A stretch of 45,749 bases of DNA from an uncultured Bacteroidota bacterium (GTDB taxonomy: Bacteria; Bacteroidota; Bacteroidia; 2-12-FULL-35-15). The notes beneath the pieces are model-generated. The model was not told where the DNA came from. It was given only the letters and a program-made list of their open reading frames with translations, and searched no databases. Shown here piece after piece: positions 11,151-41,440 of this stretch (position 1 is its first letter; the number at the start of each line of letters is the position of its first letter). The stretch covers positions 1 to 45,749 of the forward strand of contig CAIQBY010000260.1 of assembly GCA_903870175.1 (NCBI GenBank). The letters are read 5' to 3'. The position numbers and the translations under genes are program-made.

Positions 11151-11267
11151 ATTTTGCTTTAATGATTATTTATTTGGGAGATTAGATAAAGATTATTGTT
11201 TATGATTTTTTACAAAGCAGTTTGCCAATTCAATTATTACTTAATACCTTATTTCACTTTTACCTCG

Positions 11268-11632
11268 ACTCATTTCTTTTTGATAAAAACTCATTAGTTG
11301 GTTATCAAAACTAATTGGTTTTTATGCTCGCCTCGTTGCTTTTTATTCTTTACTCAACCCTTTTTTTGCTCAGCTCAAACCTTATTACCCTCAGCTCATT
11401 GGTTTTTGTGCTTTACTCGGTAGTTTTTGCCCAAAACTCCCGAGTAAATGGCATTTACTCCCGAGCTTTTCGTCATTTACTCCTGAGTAAACCCGTTTTA
11501 CTCCCGAGTAAAGTGCTTTTACTCCTGAGTTTTGGCTCCAAACCAATGAGTAAAGCATCAAAACTACCGAGTTGCGGTCAAACACCTGTAAACATTGAAG
11601 AAAATGATTTGAGTTTTGACCCAAAACCTTAA
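11268..11632. repeat. Array A: degenerate tandem repeat with 21-bp period
   Basis: Successive copies begin at 11268, 11289, 11310, 11331, 11352, 11373, 11394, 11415, 11436, 11457, 11479, 11500, 11521, 11542, 11563, 11584 and 11605. Every step is 21 bp except one of 22. The most regular copies read ACTCCCGAGT or ACTCCTGAGT followed by a T-rich spacer; TTTACTCCCGAGTAAA is a perfect dyad apart from its two central bases. Outer copies are more diverged (ACTCATTAG, GCTCAAACC, ACTACCGAG); a weaker copy may start at 11247. The overlapping open frames of 105 and 77 codons are by-products of a period divisible by three. There is no gene within the array; 11633-11795 holds nothing recognisable. Confidence 0.85.
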
Positions 11633-22847: not shown

Positions 22848-23567
22848 CTACGGAATTCGGAAACTTTGCGGTGCGCTCCAGTCGCCTTTAATACCGGTAG
22901 CGGTAACCCATCGGGAACAGGAATAAAACAGGAGACCTGAATATTTTGAGTTGAAAACAAGAATCATCGGTGTACGTGTTCCGTCTTCTATCCGTCCATA
23001 ATCATCAGCACTATCGGGTGGCACAGCAAAAGCAATCACTCCTTGAGCATCAGGCGGCAGCGGCGTACAAATAAAAATAGCTGTTTCCACACGTGCTGCA
23101 CCTTCCGGTTTTCCTCTTTTTTTCACACCTTTAGCATCCGGCTGCTGGCGATAAAATGATTTTACATTTGGAGGATTGCCTGCCTGCATCGCCATCAAAG
23201 GCACAGTTGCAGGTTTGCCTATCTTGGTTTTAGTAGTTTTATGTGGTTTTAATCCGCAATCCGACACATCTCCGTCATCCATCGAATCGTTTGCATAAAT
23301 CCATACTTTCACAAATTTACGCATCCATTTACTAAGATTAGCGCGTGCTATGTCTTTTTTATCCCTTTGAGTAGTGTTGGACTTAGTTTTCTTTTTAGTA
23401 ATCGCATATATTTTGCTCCACGCAATAAGCAAAGTCGCGCCTGCTGCTATTACGGTGGTATCAATATCCCAGTCGGCAGCATTATCCGTTACTTCTTCCA
23501 TTATTTGATTTACAAGCGTATCATACGTTTCGTCGGGTCCGCCAAATTGGTCTGTACTGTCTGACAT
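22848..23567 (-). CDS. Unknown protein encoded downstream of 21-bp array B
   Basis: The 239-residue protein has an acidic helical N-terminus (YDTLVNQIMEEVTDNAADWD) and a hydrophobic helix near 60 (TVIAAGATLLIAWSKIYAI) too short and mixed to be a confident membrane anchor. A basic linker follows (KKKTKSNTTQRDKKD). The C-terminal beta-rich part ends SRWVTATGIKGDWSAPQSF, which is reminiscent of a fibronectin-III-like fold. No signal peptide or catalytic motif is seen. I do not recognise a named family. It is a single-gene unit on the minus strand: a TACTTTTG box at 23881-23888, array B in the apparent leader, the CDS, then a strong terminator. Confidence 0.75.
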   Translation of the reverse strand: MSDSTDQFGGPDETYDTLVNQIMEEVTDNAADWDIDTTVIAAGATLLIAWSKIYAITKKKTKSNTTQRDKKDIARANLSKWMRKFVKVWIYANDSMDDGDVSDCGLKPHKTTKTKIGKPATVPLMAMQAGNPPNVKSFYRQQPDAKGVKKRGKPEGAARVETAIFICTPLPPDAQGVIAFAVPPDSADDYGRIEDGTRTPMILVFNSKYSGLLFYSCSRWVTATGIKGDWSAPQSFRIP

Positions 23568-23642: not shown

Positions 23643-23852
23643 GGGAGTTCCCTGTTTTTATTTGGGAGCTCCTGTTTTTAAAAAGGGACTTCCCGTTTTT
23701 TATTCAGGAGTTCCTGTTTTTTAAAAGGGAGTTCCCTGTTTTTATTTAGGAGCTCAAGTTTTTAAAAAGGGAGTTCCCGTTTTTTATTTGGGAGCTCCTT
23801 TATTTTATTTGGGAGTTCCTGTTTTTTAAAATTGCCTCCGATTATTTTTACT
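23643..23852. repeat. Array B: degenerate tandem repeat with exact 21-bp period
   Basis: Copies start at 23643, 23664, 23685, 23706, 23727, 23748, 23769, 23790 and 23811, with a decayed tenth at 23832. All steps are exactly 21 bp. The core is GGGAGYTCCY, nearly self-complementary (GGGAGTTCCC, GGGAGCTCC), followed by GTTTTT. Copies alternate between ATTT-type spacers (1, 3, 5, 7) and AAAA-type spacers (2, 4, 6), a 42-bp higher order; the first and fifth copies are identical. The array lies between a predicted minus-strand promoter (23881-23888) and the start codon at 23567, so it is probably transcribed as a leader. The remainder of 23568-23933 is plain AT-rich sequence. Confidence 0.92.
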
Positions 23853-36263: not shown

Positions 36264-36302
36264 CCTGATGTTTAGAATTTAGATATTAGAATTTAGAATT
36301 TA
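36264..36302. repeat. Short dispersed AT repeat (TTTAGAATTTAG-type)
   Basis: Imperfect tandem copies of TTAGAATTTAGA/TATTAGAATT between csp and rng. The same word occurs at 39000-39032, 41465-41480 and 41630-41645, each beside a gene end. They look like dispersed simple-sequence repeats rather than regulatory sites. Confidence 0.5.
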
Positions 36303-38997: not shown

Positions 38998-39048
38998 TCA
39001 ATTTAGAATTTAGAAATTAGTATTTAGAATTTCCATTCTAAAACTTAA

Positions 39049-40328: not shown

Positions 40329-40364
40329 AAAGAATCCCGTTCTTTTTCAATAACGGGATTCTTT
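40329..40364 (-). terminator. Terminator directly abutting array C
   Basis: A perfect 13-bp stem (AAAGAATCCCGTT / AACGGGATTCTTT) with a 10-base loop; on the minus strand it is followed by GTTTTTGG. The first array C copy begins at 40365, the very next base, so a transcript of 40502-41440 would carry the whole array as its 3' untranslated region. Confidence 0.8.
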
Positions 40365-40511
40365 AAGGTAATGTCGAAGATTTTTGTGGTAAAAACTTAA
40401 ATTTCTGTGGTAATCTTCAAAAATTCCGTGGTAAAAACTTCATTTTTTGTGGTAGAATTTTAAAATTCTTTGGTAAAAACATAGTTTTTCTTCATCAAAA
40501 CTTAGTTATTC
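40365..40511. repeat. Array C: degenerate tandem repeat with exact 21-bp period
   Basis: Copies begin at 40365, 40386, 40407, 40428, 40449, 40470 and 40491, all exactly 21 bp apart. The core is GTGGTA, usually GTGGTAAAAACTT, followed by a T-rich end (TTTCT, TTTTT). Odd full copies (40386, 40428, 40470) share TGGTAAAAAC while even ones (40407, 40449) have GTGGTAATC or GTGGTAGAA, a 42-bp alternation. The last copy overlaps the stop codon of the gene at 40502. The core differs completely from those of arrays A and B, but period and layout are the same. Confidence 0.9.
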
Positions 40512-41440
40512 ATATAACTCATTTGGCAAGTTACTGTTAAACTTGGGTTATTAATTGTCATTGTCGTATAACCTTTTTCAACTTGCCAGTGGTCGCCTGC
40601 AACAATAACGATAGGTGTTCCGGTTCCTTTTGCACCTTTGGTAATTGTAAGCGGCACGGTTCCTGTATTTTGAATAATGCTTCCGGCAACTACAGAATAT
40701 AATATTTTGGTGCCGCCCATTTTAAATTTGGCAATAGTTAATTTAGCACCTTTTGGAGTACTGTCAATCACAAATCCCCAATCGCCACCACTTTTTGGTG
40801 TAAGCGGAAACTGTGAAACAATAAATCCGCCTGTGCCACGCAAATCTTCAAATACAGGTGCTATTGCTGCATCGCGTTTTTCGCAAAGCGATTTACTCTG
40901 TTTTTCGGCAGCCAAAAAGTCAGTATTGTTTTGCTTAATATCAGTCAATGCATCAAGGTTAGCTGCCAAATCAATTTTGTTTTGAGATAAAAAAGTAGCG
41001 GTAATAGCCCTTGTGCCTGCCGGTAACGAATTATTGTAATTAATCAATTCAGCAATTGCTGCGCAAATTTCAGCTCTGTCGGTAGGGTACACAATTTTAT
41101 TGCCTTCCACCTTTATGCCATAGTCGCCAAGCGTTTTCACTGTTTTGGCATAAAACTTTTTAAGCATCTGCACCATTAATTTATGATCTTTAAATACAGG
41201 ATTTAACCCTACTTCGCACAGTTCGAGCAGCTTTTTAGAGTTTTTGGTAGATGCATCAAACTGAGTGTTTAATTTAACTGCCTCAATTACTGCTGTTGCA
41301 TTTATACCCATATCAATCTTTTGCTGAGCGAAGTAAGGAATAAGGATGCTGCCGGCGCCGTCTTTCGTGTTTTTGTCATTCGTGTTTGTGAACAAAGTTA
41401 CTTTGCCCTCAAATGTAATCGGTAATACAATTCTTGCCAT
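40502..41440 (-). CDS. Unknown two-part protein associated with array C
   Basis: The 312 residues have no signal peptide or membrane segment. Residues about 30-190 look all-helical (AAVIEAVKLNTQFDASTKNS, KFYAKTVKTLGDYGIKV, ALTDIKQNNTDFLAAEKQSK). The last 110 are beta-rich (GDWGFVIDSTPKGAKLTIAK, IQNTGTVPLTITKGAKGTG, VIVAGDHWQVEKGYTTMTI) and suggest a beta-sandwich or Ig-like end. There is no catalytic motif. I do not recognise a named family. It is a single-gene minus-strand unit with a terminator-like hairpin in its upstream region, array C immediately after the stop codon and then a terminator. It occupies an accessory segment between HU and mutY. Confidence 0.75.
   Translation of the reverse strand: MARIVLPITFEGKVTLFTNTNDKNTKDGAGSILIPYFAQQKIDMGINATAVIEAVKLNTQFDASTKNSKKLLELCEVGLNPVFKDHKLMVQMLKKFYAKTVKTLGDYGIKVEGNKIVYPTDRAEICAAIAELINYNNSLPAGTRAITATFLSQNKIDLAANLDALTDIKQNNTDFLAAEKQSKSLCEKRDAAIAPVFEDLRGTGGFIVSQFPLTPKSGGDWGFVIDSTPKGAKLTIAKFKMGGTKILYSVVAGSIIQNTGTVPLTITKGAKGTGTPIVIVAGDHWQVEKGYTTMTINNPSLTVTCQMSYMNN

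Follow-up and report, generated by a model that had tools for sequence, protein, structure and literature searches.

The window analysed here, the 45,749 nucleotides of contig CAIQBY010000260.1 from an uncultured Bacteroidota bacterium, contains three arrays of direct repeats (Table 1). Array C adjoins the gene P0003, which belongs to an undescribed protein family that we labelled AAP (array-associated protein) for this analysis. Direct reading confirmed GTGGTA/TTGGTA cores at 40386, 40407, 40428, 40449 and 40470 and weaker in-phase copies at 40365 and 40491, as described in an earlier note made from the sequence alone; in the sense of the AAP gene the core reads TACCAC instead of GTGGTA. The two boundaries given in that note are also correct: the last copy contains the stop codon of P0003 (TTA at 40502-40504 on the plus strand), and the hairpin stem (AAAGAATCCCGTT...AACGGGATTCTTT) ends one base before the array. 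Read on the minus strand the stem is followed by a T-rich tail, so that it can terminate the gene transcript past array C.

Table 1. Positions of genes, repeat arrays and hairpin in the window.
Feature	Position	Strand	Description
AAP gene (P0003)	40502..41440	-	312 aa; two helical-domain copies and a C-terminal cupin-like beta barrel (predicted)
Array C	40365..40511	.	seven 21-bp registers, alternating 42-bp pattern
Intrinsic-terminator-like hairpin	40329..40364	-	adjoins array C directly
Array A	11258..11590	.	roughly 15 21-bp registers of ACTC/GAGT type
Array B	23643..23830	.	nine 21-bp registers; units palindromic (GGGAGTTCCC/GGGAGCTCCT)
Second gene	22848..23567	-	helical N part and beta C part, by eye similar in build to P0003; immediately downstream of array B

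Autocorrelation of array C, suggested in the earlier note as a check on its periodicity, yielded a lag-21 identity of 76/126 (0.60), and none of 5000 dinucleotide shuffles reached at least 76 matches (background 38.3 +- 5.3, maximum 56). In 300 shuffles the top identity over all lags from 8 to 70 was 0.49 compared to the 0.60 observed. Identity amounted to 0.66 at lag 42 and 0.61 at lag 63; the 42-bp alternation is stronger than the 21-bp period, which indicates that the units alternate. When the whole window was scanned for 84-bp stretches with at least 46 matches at lags 10 to 69, lag 21 accounted for 459 window positions in three separate clusters, corresponding to arrays A, B and C, lag 42 for 314, lag 63 for 277 and its neighbour lag 64 for 38, and each of the remaining lags for 0-5 positions. 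A spacing of 21 bp, with 42 and 63 bp, is the sole period of this kind in the window.

Array A is flanked by genes for a TonB-dependent receptor and an M14 peptidase, and no gene resembling AAP adjoins it. Array B differs from array C in folding much more strongly than its permuted versions (z -4.9 and -6.6), and the gene next to array B was likened to P0003 by build only, not by sequence homology. Dispersed copies of array C were not evident in its own genome, where GTGGTA N15 GTGGTA occurs five times in forward and four times in reverse orientation versus 5/1 for the control; one match elsewhere in this genome (C27) is another 21-bp array.

P0003 and its relatives matched no family in Pfam or NCBIfam. 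The structure of P0003 predicted from 16 family members (mean pLDDT 92.8) comprises two helical domains and a C-terminal beta barrel, and a fold search with the whole model placed cupin-like barrels on residues 231-312 (Z 7.4-9.6, some 75 residues aligned). At these middling scores the barrel resembles cupin-type folds, a likeness that does not indicate what the protein does. A model of the isolated helical domain, built from 17 single-domain relatives (mean pLDDT 83.4), had no Foldseek match among solved structures at E <= 0.001, and a sequence search of solved structures with both profiles gave nothing below E 0.05. Pfam, NCBIfam and the fold search of the helical domain detected no recognised DNA-binding domain in AAP proteins. 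When viral contigs were examined for a phage origin, a relative was encoded in none of 111 candidate stretches, and comparison with PHROGs gave single weak matches only. Among 395 genomes of the wider phylum profile A3 matched only the genome of the window and protein L145 matched none; without a positive control an empty result of this kind carries little weight.

With a profile of four members, 3 of 36 genomes of the genus and 12 of 295 genomes of the class proved to contain AAP genes, and the genome of the window is among the positives in both sets. Homologues without adjacent arrays would have spoken against the reading of the earlier note, and the outcome was the opposite: all 19 assessable homologues carry a 21-bp array at their 3’ end, starting between 36 bp before and 158 bp after the stop codon. 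This count leaves out five genes cut by a contig end at their 3’ side and six single-domain relatives. A further search gave 24 places in 11 of 295 genomes, with an array at each of the five new genes opened. Searching with a single-domain relative gave matches in 11 of 247 class genomes, and here the array precedes the gene, at a distance of no more than 353 bp, in 17 of 19 assessable cases, two of them (L144 and L145) barely at threshold; the exceptions are L153 with the array behind the gene and L161 without array. Contigs break inside AAP genes at L050, L054, L055, L056 and L059, perhaps because paralogues confused the assembly. Genomes G004 and G034 share the same AAP locus (L215, L216) with identical protein and array, which is due either to recent transfer or to mixed bins.

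The coupling contrasts with control loci. While 57 AAP loci (174.6 kb) hold 55 lag-21 arrays, only 4 are present in 29 loci of mutY (113.8 kb), and lags 18-20 and 22-24 gave 0-4 arrays in the same comparison. Three lag-21 arrays were found in 30 loci of a MATE-like gene; mutY was named from its Pfam domains and the MATE-like gene by eye. In sampled stretches of the window’s own genome an array follows the stop codon of 6 out of 217 genes, two of which are AAP genes, and in those of genome G299 of 24 out of 185 genes. Array C is one member of a class of intergenic arrays that accompany AAP genes in certain Bacteroidia.

Tandem Repeats Finder, which presupposes no period, reported 60 tandem arrays in AAP loci, 52 of them with a period of 21 (33), 42 (14) or 63 bp (5). 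Spacing is constant although units differ, as the earlier note had remarked for array C: 58 arrays of period 21 or 42 show a mean match of 75% and a mean indel rate of 2%, values to be read in the light of the fact that this program and the lag-21 detection both favour in-phase arrays. One-base slips occur inside arrays L009 and L041. The step from constant spacing to selection on spacing stands in part. Phase is kept in diverged units, and such selection is likely but not proven, because concerted copying of whole 21-bp units could keep the phase as well.

Array density differs between genomes. Sampled stretches contained 18 lag-21 arrays in 345 kb of the window’s own genome, 50 in 246 kb of G299 (approximately one per 5 kb), 1 in 75 kb of G041 and 2 in 338 kb of G010, with 0-5 arrays at each of the other lags from 15 to 30. 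In G010, which belongs to the same genus and has few arrays, the profile search detected no two-domain AAP gene. Most arrays of G299 lie between ordinary genes, away from any recognised AAP gene; in genes named by eye, L182 5844-6096 stands between rpoB and rpoC and L092 6146-6408 directly before atpF.

Comparison of mutY loci showed how AAP genes and arrays vary at one place. In the genome of the window P0003 and array C are situated upstream of mutY. In G012, the nearest genome by MutY (87%), a different gene of similar build occupies that place, followed by an array with unrelated units, and in G005 just 169 bp separate mutY from the preceding gene. Hence, a given site may have both gene and array, lack the two, or have others instead; the likeness of the genes at mutY loci is one of build, and their sequence does not show homology to P0003. 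Behind the same MATE-like gene G005 and G026 carry arrays with unrelated units (2 of 30 loci). As this is a single weak case, we do not claim that arrays keep their place over time.

The unit sequence is private to each array. Among 14 arrays of the window’s own genome and among 55 of G299, similarity between units of different arrays was at the level of column-permuted arrays, with the exception of seven pairs above 0.8 in 1485 in G299. One unit from these pairs is found at three places, between rpoB/rpoC-like genes, before a gene whose build is AAP-like and after one that resembles an outer-membrane receptor gene (all named by eye), which suggests that some arrays are copied to other sites. 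A formal motif search across arrays found nothing in common except an A/T tract, and a GGNAG core initially seen by eye was therefore dropped. Palindromes did not appear to be a general feature either, as z exceeded 2 in 5 of 29 arrays and averaged 0.5; for palindromes with gapped arms the excess was modest in G299 arrays (mean z 1.03, n 48), smaller in own-genome arrays (0.56, n 13) and absent beside AAP genes (0.26 +- 0.19, n 35).

AAP pairs more than 80% identical have similar arrays (mean 0.78, three pairs), pairs of 50-60% identity are at background (mean 0.609), and two pairs below 50% are alike too. In a permuted-array test, none of 100 permuted arrays scored as high as the pairs L058/L060, L162/L164 and L154/L157, whereas 3 did so for L146/L154 and 9 for L146/L157, and 1, 4 and 0 for the pairs with L224. 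For L036/L037/L038 the number was 18-28 of 100, and the remaining pairs gave 18-98 of 100, including those of array C with the four other arrays compared, none of which it resembles. A AAGTAYGGCACTTA-like core is common to the arrays of G093, G307 and G004/G034, which represent three taxonomic families and whose proteins are 43-50% identical. Using arrays L213, L214 and L215, 0 of 100 permuted arrays scored as high for G093 versus G034, 0 of 100 for G307 versus G034 and 3 of 100 for G093 versus G307. A core is kept in this one subfamily as well as in some close paralogues.

Moreover, arrays tolerate inversion. The G041 paralogues L162 and L164 (93% identical) share nearly the same 150 bp before the start codon, with the array inverted in place, as reflected in alignment scores of 124 inverted and 64 direct for the array versus 238 direct and 58 inverted for the flank. 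In-phase flips in mid-array were found in L031, L039 and L053, CCTACC and GGTAGG occupy one register in L092, and in G093 the AAGTAYGGCACTTA-like core is inverted and placed on the other side of the gene.

In our preferred reading, to which we give a probability of about 0.4, the array would provide helically phased DNA sites, set in a row, for the AAP encoded next to it or for a partner protein; this reading best covers the coupling, the phase, the indifference to orientation and the kept core. With 21 bp corresponding to two turns of B-DNA, all sites would lie on the same face of the helix and proteins bound to them could line up; orientation of the sites and side of the gene would be irrelevant and spacing would matter. 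The outcome would be control or local organisation of the AAP locus. From the observations above we infer binding of a protein to the array, AAP as this protein, and such a controlling or organising role. The strongest counter-evidence is that units are unrelated in most AAP pairs with 50-60% identity, so that sequence-specific binding would have to switch fast, together with the lack of a known DNA-binding domain. The dissimilarity of array C to the other arrays tested, the location of most G299 arrays away from recognised AAP genes and the want of a motif beyond the A/T tract also count against phased sites. It is conceivable, if on the whole unlikely, that AAP and array form a two-part system, different from any known one, in which AAP or a partner recognises its own array and rebuilds it, directly or via a recombinase. 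The 21-bp step would then be kept while the wording is rewritten, inverted and moved, and some arrays would be copied elsewhere.

The main rival is a process in these genomes that duplicates 21-bp units at intergenic places and confers no role. Such duplication might come from a nuclease or recombinase whose cuts are staggered by 21 bp, or from slips of two helical turns during copying, and AAP loci would be its hot spots or take part in it. We regard such a mutational by-product as somewhat unlikely. Private units of independent origin, with a within-genome similarity no higher than that of column-permuted arrays bar a few copied ones, agree with it, as do the genome-specific densities of G299, the window’s own genome and G010, the harmless position of arrays between core-operon-like genes (rpoB/rpoC, before atpF) and the unrelated units behind the MATE-like gene of G005 and G026. 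It leaves unexplained, however, why arrays are found at all AAP genes tested but at few others, and why a core was kept across taxonomic families in one subfamily. Diverged units that hold phase at a 75% match with 2% indels also speak against it, to the extent that detection itself favours in-phase arrays. Alternatively, A-tracts recurring every 10.5 bp might bend or wrap the DNA at the gene end, in which case any wording in phase would serve. The 10.5-bp harmonic of A/T content was indeed elevated (0.183 versus 0.100 +- 0.017; 29 arrays), and in a wedge model with assumed angles 19 arrays behind AAP genes exceeded the bend of block-permuted arrays at a mean z of 0.83, with z 2.2 for array C, so that DNA bending has moderate support for the arrays behind AAP genes. 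In the same model, however, the other 15 arrays showed no excess of bend (mean z -0.10), and a kept core is not needed for pure bending; we consider curvature by itself distinctly improbable as the explanation.

The position of array C between stop codon and terminator had led the earlier note to describe the array as packaged in a 3’ untranslated region, and this description holds for array C, but not as a general rule, since arrays precede the single-domain relatives, most G299 arrays lie between ordinary genes, and only 7 of the 19 AAP cases show a convincing terminator after the array. An array acting as RNA, through binding sites or structure, would fit this position and the observation that array B, L021, L053 and L071 fold more strongly than permuted arrays. 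Array C itself folds no more strongly than its permuted versions (z 0.2), the array of L031 stands behind a terminator-like hairpin, and Rfam at gathering score had no match in the window or in 16 loci. Because arrays precede genes and invert, an RNA element is very unlikely as a general reading. The arrays might also encode a heptad-repeat peptide, 21 bp being seven codons, and some contain long open frames, such as the 169-aa frame at 3017-3526 of L013. An open frame in any of the six was present in 18 of 34 arrays, though, compared to an expectation of 16.9 under column permutation; none occurs in array C, and the one-base slips in L009 and L041 are at odds with coding. With open frames at their column-permutation expectation we reject this explanation.

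Iterons of plasmid replication origins, REP/BIME elements with RAYT transposases, CRISPR arrays and Borg tandem repeats each match one feature of the AAP arrays and fail a defining one. Iterons, direct repeats that lie next to a gene and span roughly two helical turns, presumably place protein sites on one face of the DNA. AAP arrays resemble them as direct repeats next to a gene, spaced by whole helical turns and private to each system; they differ in being chromosomal and multi-copy and in changing side and orientation, and no winged-helix replication initiator was detected on P0003 or its relatives with Pfam and NCBIfam. CRISPR arrays are gene-linked and consist of identical repeats, with unrelated spacers of roughly equal length between them. 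AAP arrays share the linkage to a gene and a kept core next to a more variable part, but the 21-bp period spans the whole unit and there are no separate spacers; PADLOC applied to 16 AAP proteins gave one weak match (Cas11, E 0.044) and no convincing Cas model.

REP/BIME elements are likewise intergenic, numerous in a genome, private in sequence to a lineage and situated beside their gene. AAP, in contrast, has no Y1/HUH transposase domain, and the fixed 21-bp period with changing wording, few units being shared within a genome, differs from one dispersed sequence. As to palindromy, z was above 2 in 5 of the 29 arrays, and the gapped-arm mean z given above was 0.26 beside AAP genes and 1.03 in random G299 arrays. 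Borg tandem repeats are perfect copies whose unit length varies between arrays (PMC9879509). Like AAP arrays they are scattered, nearly all unique in sequence, arise independently and lie at gene ends and between genes, whereas the units of AAP arrays diverge (75% match) and 52 of 60 have a period of 21, 42 or 63 bp. Concordant with the earlier note, which knew of no described element of this form, we recognised no description of such gene-coupled 21-bp arrays in the open-access literature; they may be described elsewhere. A fixed repeat length combined with free sequence and tied to one protein family is not usual for slippage or selfish repeats. It suggests either a protein able to read the phase of the helix or an enzyme that works in steps of 21 bp, and each of these would be new. 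The array density in G299 bears on the organisation of intergenic DNA in these bacteria.

Repeats of other lengths were also noted. Seven-base repeats (TTTAGAA / AATTTAG) lie between genes at 36271-36302 and 39000-39032 of the window, and L044, L094 and L103 likewise contain seven-base repeats. L017 2126-2229 is a 22-bp array with AGTGAATCACTTAGAGGTACTA units and as such a rare exception to the period of 21, and L020 5878-6209, from the same genome as the window, comprises eight copies of a 41-bp repeat that are 94% alike.
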